From positions 1 through 29,602 of IMG/VR virus record IMGVR_UViG_3300032315_000308: 29,602 bases of DNA. One strand, 5' to 3'. The DNA is from a virus. This document shows positions 2 to 18,048 of the stretch, one piece after another (the first letter of the stretch is position 1; each line of letters begins with the position of its first letter). A program made the translations under genes and the position numbers. Under the pieces are notes generated by a model, which saw only the letters and a list, made by a program, of their open reading frames with translations, was not told the origin of the DNA and made no database searches.

Positions 2-1483
2 CCTATTAACGAGTCACCTATAGGTCTGCTGACTGCTGAGATTAAAGAAGAGTTAGGAATACCAAAAGGTAACATAGCTAGCCCATGGGCAGTTAAGCGA
101 CTCAAAGAATACGACGGTGATCTGACTCAGTTCAGAGTAGTTAAAAAGTTTCCGTCTCAGTTGGAGCAGGTGGCTATTACTAAGACAGAACCGGGAGACG
201 ATAACAACCAAGACATTTCGGCACTTGTAGGTAAGACAGACATCAGAAAGCTTGAAAGATTCTCTCAAGACGACCCTGATTCTTATTCTTACAGTGGTGG
301 GCTGTGTCAGTCAAACCAAGGTGTTCTTGACTTCGTGGAAATGTTTAAGGCACCAATTAAGATGCTGCATCCATTACTAACGGCAACACAAGAAAGAAAC
401 TATAAAGGCACAGAGGCGCTATCGGCTATTCCATATGATGGTATAGTGCTAGCTCACAGTAACGAATCTGAATGGACAGCGTTTAAACAGAACAAGAACA
501 ACGAAGCGTTTTTGGATAGGGTGTTCATCGTAGAAGTGCCATACTGTCTTAGGGTAGATGATGAAGTGAAAATCTACGAGAAGCTCCTAACAGGCAGTAA
601 GCTTAAAGAAGCTCCAATTGCCCCTAATACGCTGAGAATGCTTGCTGAATTTTGTGTTATATCTAGGCTGGAAGACCCAGAGAATTCAAGCATAGTATCT
701 AAAATGAGGGTATACAATGGTGAGAACGTTAAAGAAAGAGACGCTCATGCCAAGTCACTTCAAGAGTATAAGGATGGTGCATCATTAAATGAGGGGTTCT
801 TTGGAATCTCTACTAGGTTGGCATACAAGATTTTAGCTGAGGTCTTCAATTTTGACCCAAATGAAATCGCTGCAGACCCTGTACATTTGCTGTACGTACT
901 AGAGAAAACTGTGTTAAAACAAAGATATACTGATGACATCAAGGAAAAATACTTGACGTATATCAAGAAGTACCTAGCTTTGGACTACTTGAAACGAGTA
1001 GAGAAAGATATCCAGACTGCGTACTTAGATAGTTATGGTGAATACGGTCAGTCACTATTTGATCGCTACATCTTGTTTGCAGATCATTGGATACAAGATA
1101 ACGACTACAGGGACTGTGATACTGGACAAATGTTTGACAGACAGGAACTTAATCAAGAGTTAGAAAAGATTGAGAAACCTGCTGAAATCTCTAACCCTAA
1201 AGATTTTAGGCATGAGATTGTAAACTTTGCTTTACGTCATAGAGCTCAGAACAACGGTAAGAATCCTGATTGGACATCTTACGAAAAACTGAGACGTGTC
1301 ATTGAAGCGAACATGTTTAGAAAAACTAAAGATTTGTTACCAGTTATCTCGTTTACAGGGTCTGGAAACAAGGAAGATAAGACTAAGCATGAATCATTTG
1401 TCAAGAGAATGGAAACGATGGGGTACACTGAACGACAAGTAAGAAGGATCGTTGAGTGGCAAACTCGCGCAACTAAGGCATAA
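2..1483 (+). CDS. prkA: PrkA-type serine protein kinase, 5' end cut by window edge
   Basis: The frame is open from the first base of the window, so the gene starts upstream; 493 C-terminal residues are visible, against about 640 in E. coli YeaG/PrkA. PrkA is a cytoplasmic AAA-type serine/threonine kinase tied to nitrogen-starvation and stationary-phase survival in enterics and to sporulation in Bacillus. Visible landmarks are PINESPIGLL at the left edge, KTDIRKLE, a Walker B-like stretch GVLDFVEMFKAP followed by LHPLLTATQE, the AAA segment LAHSNESEW and NNEAFLDRVF, and the C-terminal PrkA domain (ENSSIVSKMRVY, KIEKPAEISNPKDFRHE, NPDWTSYEKLR, ELLPVISF-like). The Walker A loop lies outside the window. 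The visible part has no frameshift and its ending looks full length. An internal TTG at 161 is in frame but is not the start, since conserved sequence continues upstream. yeaH and spoVR homologues follow directly. Confidence 0.93.
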   Translation, partial: PINESPIGLLTAEIKEELGIPKGNIASPWAVKRLKEYDGDLTQFRVVKKFPSQLEQVAITKTEPGDDNNQDISALVGKTDIRKLERFSQDDPDSYSYSGGLCQSNQGVLDFVEMFKAPIKMLHPLLTATQERNYKGTEALSAIPYDGIVLAHSNESEWTAFKQNKNNEAFLDRVFIVEVPYCLRVDDEVKIYEKLLTGSKLKEAPIAPNTLRMLAEFCVISRLEDPENSSIVSKMRVYNGENVKERDAHAKSLQEYKDGASLNEGFFGISTRLAYKILAEVFNFDPNEIAADPVHLLYVLEKTVLKQRYTDDIKEKYLTYIKKYLALDYLKRVEKDIQTAYLDSYGEYGQSLFDRYILFADHWIQDNDYRDCDTGQMFDRQELNQELEKIEKPAEISNPKDFRHEIVNFALRHRAQNNGKNPDWTSYEKLRRVIEANMFRKTKDLLPVISFTGSGNKEDKTKHESFVKRMETMGYTERQVRRIVEWQTRATKA

Positions 1484-1490
1484 CCAAGCG

Positions 1491-1520
1491 GATTGTCTGG
1501 AGGGTATCCTCTGGACAATC
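1491..1520 (+). terminator. Intergenic 13-bp hairpin between prkA and yeaH homologues
   Basis: GATTGTC at 1491 and GACAATC at 1514-1520 form the base of a 13-bp stem (two G-T pairs) closed by a GTAT tetraloop. Only three T residues follow, and then the yeaH ribosome-binding site (AAGGGG). It lies between two genes expected to be co-expressed, so partial attenuation or RNA processing fits better than a full stop. The structure is plain in the sequence; its role is inferred. Confidence 0.55.
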
Positions 1521-1537
1521 TTTAAGGGGAACAGACA

Positions 1538-2713
1538 ATGACCATCATTGACAAAAGGAAAGCCGGAAAGAATCAATCTGCTGATAATAGGCAGAGATTC
1601 ATTAAACGGTATAAGAAGCACATAAAGAAGGCTATAGATGACGTCAGCCAAGACGACTCTATAACCGATACTATTAAAAATAGAAAGATTAAGATACCAG
1701 CTAAGGACTTGAGCGAACCAGATTTCAGCTTAGATCCAAACACTGGTAGAAAAGATATAGTTTTGCCCGGAAATAAGACCTTACAAAGAGGAGACAAGAT
1801 AGATAGACCTAAGCAAGGTCAAGGACAAAGTGGAAATGGTGGAAGCGACAGTGGAGAAGGAGAAGATGAATTTACGTTTGTGCTGACTAAAGAGGAATTC
1901 TTTGATATCTACTTTAGTGACATGGCATTACCTAACTTTATTAAAGAGTCATTTAAAGACACTAAGAAGTTTAAATATAAAAGATGTGGTTACACAAGAG
2001 ATGGCATACCGGCTAGAATGGACTTAATGAAGACATTTAAGCAATCGCTATCTAGACGTATTGCAACCAGAGAGTCATTAGAGGAAGAAGGGAAGAAGCC
2101 TAGGTTTTTAGATGATGTTGATCTTAGGTATAAACATTTTGTTAAGAAGCCTGAGCCTATAACTCATGCTAGAATATTCTTCTTAATGGATGTGTCATAC
2201 TCTATGGGAGAAACTGAGAAGTTAATAGCTAAGAAGTTTTTTATGCTACTGTATTTGTTTTTATATAGAGAGTATGAAAAGATAGAGCTGACCTTTGTGA
2301 GACACACTCATGAAGCAGACGTGGTTACAGAAGACGAGTTCTTTCACTCTACCAAGACTGGAGGCACTGTAGTATCTTCTGGCTTAGAATTAATTAACAG
2401 TATAATAGATACAGAAATAACTCTCAGCGAGACAAACGTATATGTGGCACAAGCATCGGATGGAGATAATTTCACTACTGATGACAAAAATTGTATAGAC
2501 CAATTAGTGATGCTGATAGACAAGGTGCAATATTTTGCTTATATTCAAGTAGAAGACGCAAGACGTTTTAGCTGGAAGAATCAGCAGAGTATTGAAGACT
2601 TGTTTGACTTGTATGCAGAAACTGCAAAAGAAAACAAGAAGTTTAACATACAGCGAGTACACTCACCAGAGGATGTTTATCCGGTGTTAAAAGAGCTGTT
2701 TAAGAAGGAGTGA
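1538..2713 (+). CDS. yeaH: YeaH-family protein (DUF444, VWA-type)
   Basis: 391 residues, slightly shorter than E. coli YeaH (about 427). The family has no settled biochemical role but is genetically coupled to PrkA. The N-terminus (IDKRKAGKNQSADNRQRFIKRYKKHIK) matches the basic opening of YeaH. A Gly/Ser/Gln-rich linker at about 93-107 is followed by DEFTFVLTKEEF and LPN. The von Willebrand A-like domain begins near 212 with a complete MIDAS-type motif D218-x-S220-x-S222 in LMDVSYSM, then GGTVVSS near 275 and the family signature AQASDGDN. The C-terminus DVYPVLKELF matches YeaH. The segment between LSRRIATRE and DDVDLRYK is shorter than in E. coli, which accounts for much of the length difference. 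AAGGGG precedes the ATG. It ends three bases before the SpoVR start, consistent with one operon. Confidence 0.93.
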   Translation: MTIIDKRKAGKNQSADNRQRFIKRYKKHIKKAIDDVSQDDSITDTIKNRKIKIPAKDLSEPDFSLDPNTGRKDIVLPGNKTLQRGDKIDRPKQGQGQSGNGGSDSGEGEDEFTFVLTKEEFFDIYFSDMALPNFIKESFKDTKKFKYKRCGYTRDGIPARMDLMKTFKQSLSRRIATRESLEEEGKKPRFLDDVDLRYKHFVKKPEPITHARIFFLMDVSYSMGETEKLIAKKFFMLLYLFLYREYEKIELTFVRHTHEADVVTEDEFFHSTKTGGTVVSSGLELINSIIDTEITLSETNVYVAQASDGDNFTTDDKNCIDQLVMLIDKVQYFAYIQVEDARRFSWKNQQSIEDLFDLYAETAKENKKFNIQRVHSPEDVYPVLKELFKKE

Positions 2714-2716
2714 CAC

Positions 2717-4189
2717 ATGGAGACTCCATTGTTTACAGGCACCGAGTGGGATTTTGACACTCTTGACCGGACATGGAAAGTTATAGACGACATCGGCAGA
2801 AATCAGCTAGGTGTCGACTATTATGAACCACAGTTTGAGATTATATCCAGCGAGCAAATGCTTGATTGCTATAGTAGTCACGCTATGCCTGCTATGTATA
2901 ATCACTGGTCGTTCGGTAAGTCGTTTATCCAGAACGAACATGGATATAAAACTGGACAGTCTGGTCTTGCTTATGAGGTAGTTATTAACACTAACCCAAG
3001 CATTGCGTACCTCATGGAAAACAACTCTATGACTATGCAAGCTTTGGTTATGGCACATGCTTCAGTAGGACACTCTGGTTTCTTTAAGAGCAACTACTTG
3101 TTTAGAGAGTGGTCTGATGCGGATTCCATATTAGACTACCTGAAGTATGCCAAAAACTACATAATTAAATGTGAGGAAAAGTACGGTGCCACCCAAGTTG
3201 AAGAGCTATTGGATGCATGCCATAGCCTACAAAGACACGGGGTAGATAAGTACAAAAGGCCACACATTAAAGCAGAAGTTGAAAGACAAAAGAAGAGGGA
3301 GTATGACAAATATTTGGAACAACACTTTAATGACTTGTGGCGCACTGTGCCAGAATCAGAGGAGGAAAAAATACCAGAGGAAGAGCAGACTGATAAGGTT
3401 TTCCCTGAAGAAAACATTTTGTACTTTTTGGAAAAGCACAGCCCGGTACTTAAAGATTGGCAACGAGAGATATTAAGGATAGTGAGAAAGATTTCTCAGT
3501 ATTTTTATCCTCAAATGCAAACTCAGTTGATGAATGAGGGATTTGCGTCTTTTACTCATCACACTATTATGAACATGATGTGGGAACAGAATCATATAAC
3601 TTCTGGGTCGTACATTGAGTTCATTAAGAGCCATGCTGGAGTTGTTGCTCAACCTGATTGGGACCATAAGTATTACAGTGGTATTAATGTGTATGCTCTT
3701 GGATTTGCTATGATGAAAGACATCCAGCGAATCTGTACGGCACCAGATGATGAGGATAGAAGGTATTTCCCTAGCATCTGCGACACAGATTGGAAACGTA
3801 CCATATTAGATGTGGTTCAGAACTATAGAGATGAGAGCTTTGTTACTCAGTTTTTATCTCCAAAGATATTACGAAAGTTTAAACTGTTTGCTTTAACTAT
3901 GGATGAGGAGAAAGATTATTATCAAGTTGGATTAACTCACGATGATGACCACTTGCTGGCAGTCAGAAAAGCTTTATCGGCTCAGTACGATTTGTCCAAG
4001 AGAGTGCCTCAAATTGAAGTAACCAGCGTTGACTGGAATGGAGATAGGGTTTTGCACCTAACCCATTTTGTTCAGCAAGATAGATTGCTATCTCACAAGG
4101 ATGCAAAAAAGACAGCTGCATATATTCATCAACTATGGGGGCACCAAGTTAGAATTCATTATGTGGATGAAACTGGTGAAGAAATATGA
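2717..4189 (+). CDS. spoVR: SpoVR/YcgB-family protein
   Basis: 490 residues, close to E. coli YcgB (510) and full length. In Bacillus SpoVR affects spore cortex formation; in enterics YcgB is a stress-regulated protein of unknown chemistry that co-occurs with PrkA and YeaH. Landmarks: WDFDTLD at the start, EIISSEQMLDCYSSHAMP, YNHWSFGKSF, GQSGLAYEVVIN, the His-bearing VMAHASVGHSGFFKSNYLFR (His114, His119), KDWQREILRIVRKISQYFYP, the block MNEGFASFTHHTIMN (272-286), and FVTQFLSPKILRKFKLF. The two His-containing blocks could bind metal, but this is inference. An acidic linker near 213-227 looks unstructured. GGAG lies just before the ATG and overlaps the yeaH stop. The gene ends inside an ATGA that starts the next small gene. 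Codon use looks like the neighbouring phage genes. Confidence 0.94.
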   Translation: METPLFTGTEWDFDTLDRTWKVIDDIGRNQLGVDYYEPQFEIISSEQMLDCYSSHAMPAMYNHWSFGKSFIQNEHGYKTGQSGLAYEVVINTNPSIAYLMENNSMTMQALVMAHASVGHSGFFKSNYLFREWSDADSILDYLKYAKNYIIKCEEKYGATQVEELLDACHSLQRHGVDKYKRPHIKAEVERQKKREYDKYLEQHFNDLWRTVPESEEEKIPEEEQTDKVFPEENILYFLEKHSPVLKDWQREILRIVRKISQYFYPQMQTQLMNEGFASFTHHTIMNMMWEQNHITSGSYIEFIKSHAGVVAQPDWDHKYYSGINVYALGFAMMKDIQRICTAPDDEDRRYFPSICDTDWKRTILDVVQNYRDESFVTQFLSPKILRKFKLFALTMDEEKDYYQVGLTHDDDHLLAVRKALSAQYDLSKRVPQIEVTSVDWNGDRVLHLTHFVQQDRLLSHKDAKKTAAYIHQLWGHQVRIHYVDETGEEI

Positions 4190-4335: not shown

Positions 4336-4473
4336 ATGAAATGTTCAATATGTAAAGTATTATTAGGAACTGGAAAATGCGACCAATGCCATGATGTATC
4401 TGTAAAGATTATTATTGGCTCAGCGGTATTCTTCATGGTGGCTGTCATGCTATTGGCTGCGGGCATACTGTGA
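4336..4473 (+). CDS. 45-residue zinc-ribbon membrane microprotein, copy 2
   Basis: Begins MKCSICKVLLGTGKCDQCH and shares the pattern MKCxxCxxLxGTGxCxxC with the preceding gene; both are exactly 45 residues. The C-terminal half (about 25-45, IIIGSAVFFMVAVMLLAAG) is a clear transmembrane helix, more hydrophobic than in copy 1. TTGGAG lies 6 bases before the ATG. The stop TGA overlaps the GTG start of the RuvC-like gene. A short cytoplasmic metal-binding head joined to one membrane helix is the simplest reading. Function is unknown. Confidence 0.62.
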   Translation: MKCSICKVLLGTGKCDQCHDVSVKIIIGSAVFFMVAVMLLAAGIL

Positions 4474-4952
4474 TTATTGGTATTGATCCGGGGCTATCAG
4501 GTGCTATAGGGGTGCTGGACTCGTCCGGCAAAGCCCTTATGGTGCTTGATATGCCTTTAATGATTAAGGGTAAGGGTACAGGTGCAGTTAAACAATGCGT
4601 TAACGCTAGAGGCCTCTATGACCTTTTAAAGGGGCTTGACGATAATGCCACCTGTGTTCTTGAAACAGTTAACTCACGTCCCGGTCAAGGTGTTGCCGGA
4701 GTGTTTTCACTAGGAGATACTTATGGTTGCATTCGATCAGTAATTGCCTGTCTTGGGCTGCCACTGATTAATGTTGCACCAGTAACTTGGAAGAAACACT
4801 TTAAGATAACTAAAGAGAAGGAAGTGGCTAGAGCTTTAGCCATAGAGACGTTCCCAGAGATGAGCAAACAGTTAGCTCGAAAGAAGGATATAGATAGAGC
4901 TGAAAGTTTATTAATAGCTTTATGGGGGTTTAAGACTAACAAGGGGTGCTAA
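4470..4952 (+). CDS. ruvC: RuvC-like Holliday junction resolvase
   Basis: 160 residues, the size of phage and bacterial RuvC nucleases, which cut four-way DNA junctions during recombination and before packaging. The first strand IIGIDPGLSGAIG carries catalytic Asp6; LETVNSRPGQGVAGVFSLG supplies Glu65 and the RuvC-like glycine-rich stretch; the C-terminal helix DIDRAESLLIALWG supplies the acidic pair Asp142/Glu145. The GTG start lies in the stop codon of the preceding microprotein (GTGA); starting later would lose the catalytic first strand. It may resolve replication intermediates made by genes upstream of the window. The RNase H-fold assignment is firm; true junction specificity cannot be read from the sequence. 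Confidence 0.85.
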   Translation: MIIGIDPGLSGAIGVLDSSGKALMVLDMPLMIKGKGTGAVKQCVNARGLYDLLKGLDDNATCVLETVNSRPGQGVAGVFSLGDTYGCIRSVIACLGLPLINVAPVTWKKHFKITKEKEVARALAIETFPEMSKQLARKKDIDRAESLLIALWGFKTNKGC

Positions 4953-5732
4953 ATGAGATTGCCGAAGCATTTTATACTGCCGGACTGCCAGATTAAGAAA
5001 GGCGTAGATATGTCCCATTTGGTACATATTGGACATTACATAGTAGATAAAAAACCAGATGTTATCATAAACTTAGGTGACTTTGCGGATATGCCAAGTC
5101 TATGTAGTTATGACAAAGGACAGAAGTGTTTTGAGGGTAGAAGATACAAAGAAGACATTCAGGCTGCTAAAGAGGGAATGGACTTGTTGTTGGGGCCAAT
5201 GAGAAAATACAACAAACAGGCTGCCAAACTGCACAGACCTAGGTATCGACCGAGAATGGTTCTTACCCTTGGAAATCACGAAGAAAGGATTAAACGGACA
5301 ATTAATTTCAGTCCTGAATATGAGGGTATGATAGGGTATCACGACTTACCATATGAAGACTGGGAAGTTGTAGACTATCTAAAACCTATAGATATAGATG
5401 GTGTGACGTATGTTCACTTCTTGGCAAACCCAATGAGTGGTAAACCATATTCAAGTAACGCCATGAACCAATTAGTTAAAGTAGGTAAGTCGTTTGTTGT
5501 TGGACATAAACAGACACTTGATATAGCAACTAGGTTTACATTAGGAGGGCAACAGCAGTGGGGCATTGTGGCAGGAGCTTGCTATAAGCACCAAGAGGAC
5601 TACAAAGGGTATCAAGGTAATGACCACTTTAGGGGTGTACTAATGCTTCATAGAGTGATTAATGGTAGCTTTGATCCCTGTGTTATTTCTCTAGATTACT
5701 TAAAAGATAAGTACGACCATTTGACAAAATAG
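4953..5732 (+). CDS. Calcineurin-like metallophosphoesterase
   Basis: 259 residues with the ordered metal-binding motifs of the calcineurin-like phosphoesterase fold: LPDCQ at 9-13 (a phage-style D-x-Q in place of D-x-H), NLGDFAD at 40-46, LGNHEERI at 106-113, His155 and VVGHKQ at 182-187. Such enzymes hydrolyse phosphomono- or diesters, and phage members are often thought to act on nucleic acids or nucleotides; the substrate cannot be told here. The ATG follows the ruvC TAA directly with AAGGGG upstream, so it is probably co-translated with the resolvase. That pairing hints at a DNA-processing role, which is inference. No signal peptide is present, so it is cytoplasmic. Confidence 0.82.
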   Translation: MRLPKHFILPDCQIKKGVDMSHLVHIGHYIVDKKPDVIINLGDFADMPSLCSYDKGQKCFEGRRYKEDIQAAKEGMDLLLGPMRKYNKQAAKLHRPRYRPRMVLTLGNHEERIKRTINFSPEYEGMIGYHDLPYEDWEVVDYLKPIDIDGVTYVHFLANPMSGKPYSSNAMNQLVKVGKSFVVGHKQTLDIATRFTLGGQQQWGIVAGACYKHQEDYKGYQGNDHFRGVLMLHRVINGSFDPCVISLDYLKDKYDHLTK

Positions 5733-6099: not shown

Positions 6100-6987
6100 A
6101 TGAAGAAAGCAAAAAAGATTATTGTTGAGTTGGGGCTTATGCCCCCCAACATATTGACTCCCATTAAACTGGCCAGTATGTTTAACCATAAAGAGTTTGC
6201 CCATACATCAAAAGAGTTGGTGGGGCTAAAAGCTGTAGGAGGGTCTAAAGCTTGGTTAGGCCACACACAAGTAGGTAAAAAAGAAAGTAACTTTAGAGTG
6301 GCAATAGTAGGTAAAGGTATAACGTTTGATTCTGGTGGTATATCCATCAAACCAGCACACAACATGCATGAAATGAAGTTTGACATGCTGGGGGCTGCTA
6401 CAGCGTTAGCACTTGCTGAAACACTAAAGGACTTTAAAGGCATAGTAGACATATATGGCGTATGTGCTGAAAACACATTTCACCATGAGTGTTTAAGACC
6501 CGGAGATGTTTTAGAGTATGCTGATGGTACTAAGGTAGAGATTATCAATACGGATGCTGAAGGACGATTAGTATTAGCTGATGGTATTATAGAGGCTAAG
6601 AAACACCATCCAGACATAATTATCACTATAGCTACACTAACGGGTGCTGCAAGGGCTGCATTAGGTAGCGCTACTGCCCTATTTGGTAATGACGATAGTT
6701 TAGTACAGAAGGCTATAGAGGCTTCTAAAGAGGCTAAAGAGTTACTGTGGCAGTTGCCAATTTGGGACATACACCGTAAGGACATTAAGGGCATAAAAGG
6801 TGTGGCAGACATTAAGAACCAAGGCACTATAGCAGGGGCTAGTACCGCTGCAGCGTTTCTTGAGCATTTTGTCAAAGACTCTCTGTGGCTGCACTTTGAT
6901 ATAGCAGGGTCTGCGTATAAAGATTCTAAACCCACTGGTGTTATGTTAGAAACTATTACTAAGTTACTTGACAGAATTATAGAGTGA
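6100..6987 (+). CDS. M17 leucyl aminopeptidase, catalytic domain only
   Basis: 295 residues, against about 480-500 for cellular PepA/LAP: the N-terminal domain is absent. M17 enzymes are two-metal peptidases, usually hexameric, that remove N-terminal residues from peptides. All expected ligands and catalytic residues are present with family spacing: Lys72, Asp77 (GKGITFDSGG), Lys84, Asp95, and the NTDAEGRL signature with Asp152, Glu154 and Arg156. An ATG with AGGGGA before it and the natural domain boundary argue for a genuine short form rather than a truncated gene; no upstream remnant of the N-domain is visible. In E. coli the N-domain of PepA also contributes to DNA binding, so this version should be a peptidase without that role (inference). 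It could help recycle host peptides or trim a phage protein. Confidence 0.88.
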   Translation: MKKAKKIIVELGLMPPNILTPIKLASMFNHKEFAHTSKELVGLKAVGGSKAWLGHTQVGKKESNFRVAIVGKGITFDSGGISIKPAHNMHEMKFDMLGAATALALAETLKDFKGIVDIYGVCAENTFHHECLRPGDVLEYADGTKVEIINTDAEGRLVLADGIIEAKKHHPDIIITIATLTGAARAALGSATALFGNDDSLVQKAIEASKEAKELLWQLPIWDIHRKDIKGIKGVADIKNQGTIAGASTAAAFLEHFVKDSLWLHFDIAGSAYKDSKPTGVMLETITKLLDRIIE

Positions 6988-14690: not shown

Positions 14691-15809
14691 TTAAAAAGCT
14701 TTTATTATCATGAGCATAACAAGTGATGGTTGCATGTTATTGTGCGAACCGCCTCCACCCGCTGAGCCTGTAACCCCTGCCGTAGACCCCGTAATTCTAG
14801 AACCAGTACCCGTGGTATACGTTCCAGTAAATGTAGTTGTCTGACTCCATGTATGGGTGTGAGAACCCATTTCACCTAATGTCAATGTGTGGGTTTCTGA
14901 TCCACCTGTAGACCCTACTGTATTACCTAATGTTCCAGTGCCTGACCCTCCAGAACCTACAAGAGTGTTTCTTGCACTAGTTGGTACATTAAAGGTAGTA
15001 GATCCATCACCTGACCCGTAGGCTGTTCCTATGTTCGCGAACAGTGATGCATAGGTTGTTCTACTGACAGCAGCACCATTACATGGCAACCATCCAGTTG
15101 GTGCAGTCGCATTACCATAGAAACTTATAGTTCCAGCAGGTAAAAATCCAATGGCGCCTGACGATGTCAAATTGGCTGCAGTAGTGGTACCACTGACTGA
15201 GCAAGTTCCGGTCACCGTGTGACCTAAGGACGACACTGTTGAGGAAAATACTCCGGCACCAGATACTGTAAGTGTAGAGTCGCACACAACTGCGCGCCTC
15301 AATCTACATGTTCCTGAAGAAGATTCCCCTAATTGTACACTGCCTGTAGCTCCTCCGTCAAGAAATAATTTTCCAGATCCTTTGCTAGTTATAGATAACC
15401 CTACATTAGTGTCTGTTCCTGACGATACTATAGATGGTGCCAGTCCTGTTTCAGCATTTGTTATAGTTATTTTATTTACAGCATCTGTAATAAGAGTGTA
15501 TTTTAAAGCAGCATTATCGGAAGCACCAGTGTCTCCCACTTCGGCAACAGTCCATATAGTAGACCCTTCCTTATCTTTCAGTACAAGCTTAGTGTTTCCG
15601 TTAAGAATCACCATTGCTTCACCGCGACTGTCTAATACTATTGGATTAGTAAGTGGGTTAGTGTCATTCTCTGCATCAGTTATATCGTGATAAGCTCGTT
15701 TTTTGGTGGTGGTTCCTACCTCATAGGTATACAGCAATCCACCAGATAGAGGCTCACACACATCTACCTTAAAGTACTTAACTCTAGGGGAACCTAAATA
15801 TACTGCCAT
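14691..15809 (-). CDS. Tail-collar fibre protein, paralog 3 (last transcribed)
   Basis: 372 residues in four parts: an N-terminal attachment-like domain (1-92, LGSPRVKYF ... TYEVGTTT ... NPIVLDSRGEA ... LVLKDKEGSTIW), a repeat-like middle (110-220, GTDTNVGLSITSKGSG), a phage tail-collar domain (224-290, LPAGTISFYGNATAPTGWLP, RTTYASLF, GDGSTTFNVP) and a tip. After SHTHT (316-320) a Thr/Gly-rich loop of about 34 residues varies between paralogs, and the last 18 residues (HNNMQPSLVMLMIIK) are conserved. Such proteins are trimeric fibres for host binding. AGAGGAAA precedes the ATG. Two paralogs lie directly upstream in the operon. Confidence 0.88.
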   Translation of the reverse strand: MAVYLGSPRVKYFKVDVCEPLSGGLLYTYEVGTTTKKRAYHDITDAENDTNPLTNPIVLDSRGEAMVILNGNTKLVLKDKEGSTIWTVAEVGDTGASDNAALKYTLITDAVNKITITNAETGLAPSIVSSGTDTNVGLSITSKGSGKLFLDGGATGSVQLGESSSGTCRLRRAVVCDSTLTVSGAGVFSSTVSSLGHTVTGTCSVSGTTTAANLTSSGAIGFLPAGTISFYGNATAPTGWLPCNGAAVSRTTYASLFANIGTAYGSGDGSTTFNVPTSARNTLVGSGGSGTGTLGNTVGSTGGSETHTLTLGEMGSHTHTWSQTTTFTGTYTTGTGSRITGSTAGVTGSAGGGGSHNNMQPSLVMLMIIKAF

Positions 15810-15820
15810 TGTATTTCCTC

Positions 15821-16933
15821 TTAAGTTTTAATCATCATCAACATGACCACTGATGGCTGTATGTTATTATGGGCAGTACCACTTCCCGCTGAACCTGTAG
15901 CTACTGAAGACGTCCCGTTTGAAGTAACATATGATGCTCCTCCATTTACTGCAGTGTCTGATGTTGGCTGCGTAACCGTATGAGTGTGGGCAGCAACTTC
16001 GGAAGACGTTAACGCATGCGTTTCAGCGCCTCCTGTAGCTCCTACTGTATTGCCTAACGTTCCTGTTCCAGATCCACCAGATCCTACTAATACTCGTCTA
16101 GCTCCATCAGGAACATTAAACGTGGTAGATCCATCTCCTGACCCAAACGTTGTGCCAATAATAACAAACAAGTCAGCATATGTGGTTCTACTTACAGCAG
16201 CCCCATTACATGCTAGCCAACCTGTCGGAACCGTAGACGATGCGTTCCACATGACTACACCAGCAGGTAAGAAGTTCACACTGCCGGAAGCGGTCAAAGA
16301 TCCTGCTGACATGTTCCCCGATGCGGTTAAATCACCTGTAACTGTTCGATTTCCACTAGAGAGTGTTCCCGATAGCGTAACGGCTCCGTCTGAGGTGTAT
16401 GTACCTTGAATTACCAAGGCGCGTTTAACATTTACACCACCAGTTGACACATTATTTACTTCTATGTCTCCAGAAACTCCAGAGTCCATACTAAGAAGCC
16501 CAGACCCTTTAGACGTAATCTTAAGGCCTACGTTAGTGTCGGTACCTGTTGCCGATATACTTGGGGAATTTCCCGTGGCAGCGTTTGCTATAGTTACTTG
16601 GTTAACTGCATTGTTTACAAAACCGTACTGTAGTGCTCCATTGCCCGATGCTCCCGCGTCTCCTACATTGTCGACATCCCAAACAGTATTGTCCAAACTG
16701 TCTTTAAGAATTAGCCTATATAGGCCATTTAAGGCAATATCAGCCTGTCCATAAGCATCTAAGATAACGGGGTTGCTATTAGCATTAGTCAAAGCGTCCG
16801 CATCGTCTATAGTGGGATACGTGGCTTTTGGTGTGGTTGTTCCAACCTCATAGCTGTACAGCTTCCCTAATGACAGGAAGTTGCCCTCATCGTCAAAGTA
16901 CTGTACTTTAGGGGTTCCCAGCAATAACGACAT
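15821..16933 (-). CDS. Tail-collar fibre protein, paralog 2
   Basis: 370 residues with the same four-part layout as its neighbours: N-terminal domain (LGTPKVQYF, YSYEVGTTT, NPVILDAYGQA, LILKDSLDNTVW), middle region with GTDTNVGLKITSKGSG, tail-collar domain at about 222-289 (LPAGVVMWNASSTVPTGWLA, CNGAAVSRTTY, GSGDGSTTFNVP, VGSGGSGTGTLGNTVG), then AHTHT, a variable loop at about 320-353, and the conserved end AHNNIQPSVVMLMMIK. The middle region at 170-200 also differs from the others. The role is host recognition or fibre assembly. The ribosome-binding site is weak (TAGGT), so expression may depend on coupling to the gene upstream, only five bases away. Confidence 0.88.
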   Translation of the reverse strand: MSLLLGTPKVQYFDDEGNFLSLGKLYSYEVGTTTPKATYPTIDDADALTNANSNPVILDAYGQADIALNGLYRLILKDSLDNTVWDVDNVGDAGASGNGALQYGFVNNAVNQVTIANAATGNSPSISATGTDTNVGLKITSKGSGLLSMDSGVSGDIEVNNVSTGGVNVKRALVIQGTYTSDGAVTLSGTLSSGNRTVTGDLTASGNMSAGSLTASGSVNFLPAGVVMWNASSTVPTGWLACNGAAVSRTTYADLFVIIGTTFGSGDGSTTFNVPDGARRVLVGSGGSGTGTLGNTVGATGGAETHALTSSEVAAHTHTVTQPTSDTAVNGGASYVTSNGTSSVATGSAGSGTAHNNIQPSVVMLMMIKT

Positions 16934-16938
16934 ATTAT

Positions 16939-18048
16939 TTACCTACTTTTTATGATAAGGGTTAACACCAAACTGGGCATCATGTTGTTGTGAGCACTTC
17001 CACCAGTAGATCCAGTACTTGTAGACGTAGCACTATATGCCGTAGTTCCTGATCCCCCAGAATACCTATTTAACTGATCAGGAGCGTTAATACTGTGAGT
17101 ATGTGATGGAATTTCAGCAGTAACCAACGTATGAGTTTCAGCTCCACCCGTAGACCCTACAGTATTTGCCAGTGTGCCAGTACCAGACCCTCCAGAACCT
17201 ACTAGAACACGTCTAGCAGATGTTGGAAGGTTAAACGTGGTAGAACCATCTCCTACACCAAACGTCGTGCCAATTATAGCAAACAATGCCGAGAAAGTAG
17301 TCCTACTAATAGCTGCACCATTGCATGGCTGCCACCCCGAAGGAGTGGATGATCCAGCATACCAAGCAGTCATTCCAACAGGCACAAAATCTACGTTGTT
17401 GGTAACACTAAGAGCGCCAGTAGAATGCTGTCCGGATACACTAAGAGCACCAGTAACTGTATGAGTCAAACTCGACAGTGTGGAGCTAACAGAGGTGTTT
17501 CCTGCAACACTGATAGTGGAATACGATCTCGTGTTAACACTAATAGTTATTGTACCACTAGATGTAGTACCTATCTCAACAGTGCCAGTAGCGCCCCCAT
17601 TTAATGTGAGAGTTCCTGCCTTCTTAGTAGATATGTCTAATCCAACGTTAGTGTCTGTCCCTGTAGATGCTATAATAGGCTGACTGCCAGTTACGGCATT
17701 CGTTATGGTTACCTCATTGACACCAGCTGACGATATAACAAACGATAAAACATCATTACCAATAGCGCCAGAATTTAAGTTATCCTCTGTCCAAATAGTA
17801 TTATTGTCAGCATCCTTAAGTATTATCTTGGTGGCAGATGCTAAAACAATGTTGGCTTCACCCCTACTATCAAGTATTACAGGATTGGCATTAGCATTAG
17901 TGGACGCATCGGCATCAGCAATAGTTGGATATGTCGCTACTGGAGTCATAGTGCCCGCCAAGTAGGTATATACCTTACCTCCAACTAATGGTTCTTGCTT
18001 GTTAGGGTAAAAAAATTGTACTTTTGGCGTTCCTAAGAATCTAGTCAT
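16939..18048 (-). CDS. Tail-collar fibre protein, paralog 1 (first transcribed)
   Basis: 369 residues, same architecture: N-terminal domain (LGTPKVQFF, TYLAGTMTPVATYPT, NPVILDSRGEA, IILKDADNNTIW), middle with GTDTNVGLDI, tail-collar domain at about 222-289 (VPVGMTAWYAGSSTPSGWQP, ISRTTFSALF, GVGDGSTTFNLP), PSHTH, variable loop (320-351, rich in Ser/Gly/Thr) and conserved end AHNNMMPSLVLTLIIK. It is the most diverged of the three in the middle region. It starts four bases after the gp10-like gene and, with paralogs 2 and 3, occupies the place where P22 has its gp26 needle and other tail genes. Confidence 0.88.
   Translation of the reverse strand: MTRFLGTPKVQFFYPNKQEPLVGGKVYTYLAGTMTPVATYPTIADADASTNANANPVILDSRGEANIVLASATKIILKDADNNTIWTEDNLNSGAIGNDVLSFVISSAGVNEVTITNAVTGSQPIIASTGTDTNVGLDISTKKAGTLTLNGGATGTVEIGTTSSGTITISVNTRSYSTISVAGNTSVSSTLSSLTHTVTGALSVSGQHSTGALSVTNNVDFVPVGMTAWYAGSSTPSGWQPCNGAAISRTTFSALFAIIGTTFGVGDGSTTFNLPTSARRVLVGSGGSGTGTLANTVGSTGGAETHTLVTAEIPSHTHSINAPDQLNRYSGGSGTTAYSATSTSTGSTGGSAHNNMMPSLVLTLIIKSR

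Follow-up and report, generated by a model that had tools for sequence, protein, structure and literature searches.

A PrkA-YeaH-SpoVR Triad in a Podovirus-like Fragment

The DNA examined here, a 29.6-kb IMG/VR virus record (IMGVR_UViG_3300032315_000308, analysed at its full length and referred to as the window), is a podovirus-like fragment that opens at base 2 with homologues of prkA (yeaG), yeaH (yhbH) and spoVR (ycgB), in this order and all on the plus strand. The coordinates and gene order agreed exactly with a first-pass annotation, made by a model from the letters alone, which had described an intact stress and sporulation triad carried by a phage next to recombination genes. The phage setting was borne out by portal, major head, head-closure Hc3, tail collar and endolysin genes on the minus strand, and the recombination genes by a RuvC-like resolvase 3' of the triad and a RecE-like exonuclease upstream of it on L003, a near-identical contig (L and G numbers are labels of the loci and records compared). 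On the plus strand of the window, the resolvase is followed by genes for a metallophosphoesterase and then an M17 aminopeptidase. Because prkA is preceded on L003 by genes for a Gp2.5-like single-stranded DNA-binding protein, a DNA polymerase, the RecE-like exonuclease and a nucleotide pyrophosphohydrolase, the triad is part of a replication module whose direction of transcription is the reverse of that of the virion genes. The features of the window are collected in Table 1.

Integrity and Classification of PrkA

In the window, prkA runs off the contig edge. L003 encodes exactly the same PrkA sequence over the region that both contigs cover; it carries the full 636-amino-acid (aa) protein (L003:6306-8216) and supplies residues 1-143, including an intact Walker A motif (GPVGSSKS). 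A truncated or dead PrkA was therefore rejected, and the main objection that the first-pass annotation had raised against itself, a Walker A lost upstream of the window, fails for the same reason. PrkA matched AAA_PrkA (PF08298, 5.4e-102) and, in the C-terminal region that had been noted as kept, PF06798 (4.4e-60), and passed the NCBIfam equivalog cut-off of NF011999 (1039 bits vs 576), while no MoxR model matched in the Pfam and NCBIfam searches. It keeps 66 of the 70 columns that are at least 98% conserved in cellular homologues, and the AAA+ catalytic residues K116, S117, E256, N297, R316 and R415 are all present.

The name of PF06798, "PrkA serine protein kinase C-terminal domain", recalls a kinase label that goes back to older, disputed in vitro reports (cited in PMC4664914), and the first-pass annotation had proposed that the phage might phosphorylate host targets. 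A serine/threonine kinase acting on host proteins would be consistent with conservation of the equivalent of E. coli YeaG K426, which is a lysine in 17 of 17 members of the phage clade of the window; the K116A (Walker A) and K426A variants of YeaG are both inactive in vivo (PMC4664914). However, Thermus phages and many bacteria have D or N at position 426. K426 also follows a sensor-2-like arginine at a distance of four residues (GISTR...K); K426A therefore need not report on a kinase site and may instead break ATPase coupling. Moreover, a 2026 study of purified Bacillus anthracis PrkA described an AAA+ ATPase whose kinase and protease activities were negligible and which lacks the kinase P-loop (PMC13001217). 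Phosphorylation of host targets was thus not supported, and we consider a kinase role very unlikely.

YeaH, SpoVR and the Sites of Intein-like Inserts

YeaH exceeded its NCBIfam equivalog cut-off (NF003707, 442 bits vs 396) and keeps 32 of the 34 columns at least 98% conserved in cells. Its metal-ion-dependent adhesion site (MIDAS), DxSxS-T-D, is complete: the D218-S220-S222 triplet reported in the first-pass annotation was confirmed, and T277 and D308 are also present and invariant. A structure model of YeaH shows a von Willebrand factor A (vWA) fold and matches NorD of the NorQD complex and the MIDAS domains of Rea1/MDN1. SpoVR likewise cleared its equivalog cut-off (NF008737, 700 bits vs 679) and keeps 42 of 46 such columns, together with E274 and the histidines H63, H114, H119 and H281 of the blocks recognized earlier. 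The AlphaFold2 model of SpoVR had a mean predicted local distance difference test score (pLDDT) of 86.3; a Foldseek search of this model against the PDB gave no match at E<=0.001, and a sequence search gave no relative of solved structure.

Large inserts interrupt PrkA and SpoVR in some phages. PrkA of L080 and L082 contains a 416-aa intein (Intein_splicing 9e-21, LAGLIDADG 4e-15) exactly between the Walker A residues K116 and S117. In phages of several lineages (L004, L068, L080-L082 and L141), large inserts occur in SpoVR, at four sites in all (following YcgB residues 51, 125, 284 and 286); L004 belongs to the phage clade of the window. Two of the SpoVR inserts clearly have intein-like termini, with Cys at the N-terminal end and, at the C-terminal end, an Asn that precedes a Cys. 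Only one has a Pfam intein match, which is sub-threshold; we therefore call them intein-like. Three of the four sites lie inside the invariant H-x4-H and NEGxA motifs. Since inteins prefer the active-site motifs of indispensable proteins, the strongest candidates for the active site of SpoVR are these two motifs; the prediction can be tested directly in ycgB of E. coli or spoVR of Bacillus subtilis.

Conservation and Spread of the Triad among Phages

A PrkA scan of IMG/VR yielded 130 matching stretches, from which 80 loci were kept. YeaH and SpoVR follow 3' of PrkA, in the same order and on the same strand, in all 60 loci with at least 3 kb of downstream sequence, tightly adjacent in 46. The yeaH-spoVR gap measures 0.7-2.1 kb in L007, L010, L011, L012 and L013, with order and strand unchanged. 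The first-pass annotation mentioned no more than single members in other large phages; we found complete triads in isolated Thermus phages, in huge phages of ~630 kb and in many IMG/VR contigs, and SpoVR was present in every one of 15 large records selected. A terminase gene was found in 19 of 50 records, including near-complete contigs of ~45 kb and contigs of 112-363 kb, one of the 19 being a bacterial metagenome-assembled genome (MAG; G050). Many of the remaining, terminase-less records are fragments.

The ratio of nonsynonymous to synonymous substitution rates (omega) between close pairs was 0.014-0.026 for PrkA, 0.09-0.17 for YeaH and 0.055 for SpoVR. These low values, together with the retained motifs, supported the earlier view that selection maintains the triad. 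In a comparison with two ~45-kb relatives, PrkA was the best-conserved phage protein (72% identity), compared with SpoVR (61-63%), the M17 aminopeptidase (58-65%), the DNA polymerase (51-58%), YeaH (52%), the portal (35-39%) and the major head protein (32-34%).

Single-sequence scans with the DNA polymerase and the capsid protein returned only four loci each, and an alignment of the large terminase subunit (TerL) was used instead, as an independent scan. PrkA was present in all 5 contigs that reach both 44 kb and 66% TerL identity, and in only 3 of the 11 that reach 38 kb and are 37-45% identical in TerL. The triad is core in the branch of the window and accessory in the wider family. A search confined to the tyrosine integrase family PF00589 found none in eight records of the group of the window, and a lytic life-style is therefore likely; a temperate phage carrying a host fitness gene was not favoured on the same ground. 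The 44.2-kb contig G010 (IMGVR_UViG_3300049793_000084) has a part of PrkA at each of its ends, which suggests that the genome is complete and circularly permuted.

Evolutionary History

In a PrkA tree of 144 rows, a group with a support of 100 united the window, 15 podovirus-like contigs and a single 13-kb contig from a Phycisphaerales MAG. The same phage group was recovered in separate trees of YeaH (support 99) and SpoVR (support 71), demonstrating that the triad was inherited as a unit in this group. The 13-kb contig (L083, JAJDDC010000086.1) carries a triad of the phage clade of the window, and its MAG has a PrkA of its own elsewhere; the contig may be a phage placed in the wrong bin, or it may point to the host.

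A recent accidental capture or a transducing artefact without phage function is exemplified by the record of Enterobacter phage LAU1 (L140, MN688132.1), which starts with a yeaG-yeaH pair that groups with E. coli and is probably host flank. This artefact applies to the LAU1 record only and was rejected for the window. The deep phage-only clade with its support of 100, the strong purifying selection, the conserved gene order and the terminase-bearing contigs contradict such a capture, which we regard as extremely unlikely; the recent capture that the first-pass annotation had asked to be looked for was thus found neither in the PrkA tree nor in the omega values.

A single transfer into phages was also rejected, as a single phage clade failed the approximately unbiased (AU) test (p-AU 5e-5). 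The Thermus phages form a separate clade (support 99) with the order YeaH-SpoVR-PrkA, and one 595-kb phage groups with Planctomycetota in the PrkA tree. Taken together, these results suggested that the triad crossed into phages, or between phages and bacteria, on several occasions, whichever way the transfers ran. In a concatenated tree, the E. coli-type gammaproteobacterial operon falls within the phage diversity. A broader interpretation, which we consider doubtful, is that PrkA-YeaH-SpoVR is a general, repeatedly acquired phage machine for host control, exchanged between phages and bacteria both ways, and that the E. coli-type operon nested among phage versions may derive from a phage. The range of phages that this interpretation would span, from ~45-kb podoviruses through jumbo and ~630-kb huge phages to Thermus phages, is held with the same reserve.

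Proposed Role of the Triad

In bacteria, null mutants of the triad show normal growth until they starve or sporulate. E. coli YeaG and YeaH act jointly as a metabolic brake in nitrogen starvation, and their loss leads to faster recovery and lower long-term survival (PMC4664914, PMC10954441); the link to starvation drawn in the first-pass annotation is supported through these homologues. The E. coli yeaG-yeaH genes (with ycgB) and Bacillus prkA-yhbH-spoVR comprise the same three families with the same catalytic and MIDAS residues as the phage set, and the phage gene order is that of Alphaproteobacteria, whereas the E. coli SpoVR gene is located elsewhere. The phage set differs from the bacterial one in being phage-borne and in a replication module, in a PrkA only ~60% identical and in a YeaH ~36 aa shorter than that of E. 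coli. Two incidental and weak observations come from evolved E. coli populations (PMC10044975): yeaG E414K swept in one T7-selected population, E414 being invariant in our alignment outside the Thermus phages, and yeaG E555* and ycgB H127Y, the latter in an invariant SpoVR histidine, rose under iron selection.

Among phages, the Thermus phages phiYS40, TMA, phiLo, MN1 and Lalka likewise carry all three families together, although their PrkA is only ~27% identical and their genes are annotated singly. The 343-kb Ralstonia jumbo myovirus RsoM2USA has PrkA (ORF30) and SpoVR (ORF28) on one strand with one gap the size of an open reading frame (ORF) between them; the middle gene is unnamed in the table of that paper, and no system is described (PMC8504454). 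This was the sole relevant phage paper returned by a literature search for phage PrkA and SpoVR, in which many subscription papers were out of reach, and PHROGs lists all three families as of unknown function. Single triad genes have thus been annotated in phages before, and we found no paper in the literature searched that describes the phage system as such. Its presence in many unrelated viruses points to an undescribed mode of viral control over host physiology.

We tentatively favour, with a confidence somewhat short of even, a phage-encoded functional version of the bacterial stress machine that acts on host physiology. PrkA, as an AAA+ ATPase, would probably assemble into a ring motor, YeaH would be the vWA/MIDAS adaptor coupling this motor to a client, and SpoVR, a putative metal-site enzyme, would be the likely client or effector. 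ATP-driven remodelling by PrkA-YeaH may switch SpoVR on, by analogy with NorQ-NorD, an AAA+/MIDAS precedent for target opening and metal insertion (PMC9976466). A motor and adaptor working on SpoVR is preferred because PrkA is classed as an AAA+ ATPase, the YeaH model matches NorD and the NorQ-NorD precedent exists. The MoxR-type pairs NorQ-NorD, CbbQ-CbbO and RavA-ViaA combine an AAA+ motor with a MIDAS vWA partner, as the phage pair does, but phage PrkA belongs to its own Pfam family and SpoVR has no counterpart in them; since PrkA matches AAA_PrkA and not MoxR, the phage pair would work like a MoxR pair without being a member. Because the triad shares its strand with the DNA-replication genes and opposes the structural genes, it is probably expressed early in infection, where it may impose a metabolic brake or retuning similar to that of YeaG/YeaH in starved E. 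coli, such that a slow-growing host stays usable for phage replication. The first-pass annotation had suggested that the phage may hold a starved host in a productive state; the phenotype published for E. coli is a brake on metabolism.

Several points weigh against this proposal. The triad is missing from 8 of the 11 more distant TerL relatives (contigs of at least 38 kb) and is therefore not essential to the wider family. The metal site of SpoVR around H63, H114, H119, E274 and H281 is putative, as read from the sequence. In Thermus phages the triad genes lie in the head and packaging region, in several of them beside portal and TerL, so that early host control fits less well there. The latter location (portal, minor head protein or terminase in Lalka8 and phiYS40) would agree with a dedicated chaperone that remodels a phage replication or virion protein rather than host physiology, as would the replication module of the window's group, where DNA polymerase, exonuclease and resolvase genes are neighbours, and the fact that AAA+/MIDAS pairs are typically maturation chaperones (PMC9976466). 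Nevertheless, no virion or replication gene neighbours the triad in all lineages, G012 has the triad with no homologue of the DNA polymerase of the window seen, and bacterial homologues, for which there is no phage client, still share ~60% identity with phage PrkA. We consider a dedicated chaperone unlikely.

The starvation data would also be compatible with a counter-defence role, in which the triad would dampen host toxin-antitoxin or other dormancy-based abortive responses and let infection proceed. E. coli YeaG works via transcriptional repression of mqsRA and dinJ-yafQ in nitrogen starvation (PMC4664914), and toxin-antitoxin systems have been argued to target mainly phages (PMC7438911). 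This repression is, however, probably indirect and seen only in nitrogen-starved E. coli; PADLOC matched 0 families for all three triad proteins, and the high conservation of the triad is unlike that of a fast-evolving anti-defence gene. Counter-defence is accordingly rated improbable.

If action on host physiology is correct, phages would carry a whole stress-response machine, beyond metabolic genes, which would bear on the infection of slow-growing bacteria in nature. A phage with PrkA as its most conserved protein would also offer a small genome and a direct read-out (burst size, latent period) for the function of the triad.

Other Features of the Window

Table 1. Positions of the triad, its conserved residues and the neighbouring features in the window.
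Feature	Position	Strand	Remarks
prkA/yeaG homologue, AAA+ ATPase family	2..1483	+	residues 144-636 of 636 aa; 5' end cut by contig edge
PrkA E256, putative Walker-B-like acidic residue in GVLDFVEMFK	338..340	+	invariant in all groups
PrkA N297, putatively sensor-1-like	461..463	+	invariant
PrkA R316, putatively arginine-finger-like	518..520	+	invariant
PrkA R415 (sensor-2-like, GISTR) and K419 (= E. coli YeaG K426)	815..829	+	
14-bp RNA hairpin between prkA and yeaH	1490..1521	+	minimum free energy -22.8 kcal/mol, z -3.4
yeaH/yhbH homologue (DUF444), vWA/MIDAS protein	1538..2713	+	391 aa; PF04285 9.1e-127
YeaH MIDAS DxSxS (D218, S220, S222)	2189..2203	+	100% conserved in phage and cell rows
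YeaH MIDAS T277	2366..2368	+	invariant
YeaH MIDAS D308 (SDG motif)	2459..2461	+	invariant
spoVR/ycgB homologue	2717..4189	+	490 aa; PF04293 2.3e-150, SpoVR_C 6.9e-16
SpoVR H114-x4-H119 motif	3056..3073	+	invariant; large L080-L082 insert inside, after YcgB residue 125
SpoVR N273-E274-G275-x-A277...H281 motif	3533..3559	+	invariant; L004/L141 inserts inside, after YcgB 286 and 284
RuvC-like Holliday junction resolvase	4470..4952	+	phrog_1770 1.3e-33
Metallophosphoesterase	4953..5732	+	phrog_221 1.2e-53; ~60% identity in relatives; retained alongside triad across phage group
M17 leucyl aminopeptidase, catalytic domain only	6100..6987	+	PF00883 3.9e-77; 58-65% identity in relatives

A near-identity DNA search against phage records gave no match to the window, and a promoter scan performed no better than on shuffled sequences. 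The prkA-yeaH intergenic stretch (window 1480-1545) is ~49 bp longer in L003 than in the window despite the identical PrkA. The M17 aminopeptidase matched no PHROG family; its NTDAEGRL signature is intact, and in L011 the gene sits directly after spoVR. Three tandem tail-collar/fibre genes (window 14691-18048), encoding 372, 370 and 369 aa, are alike at their ends and represent an apparent duplication.

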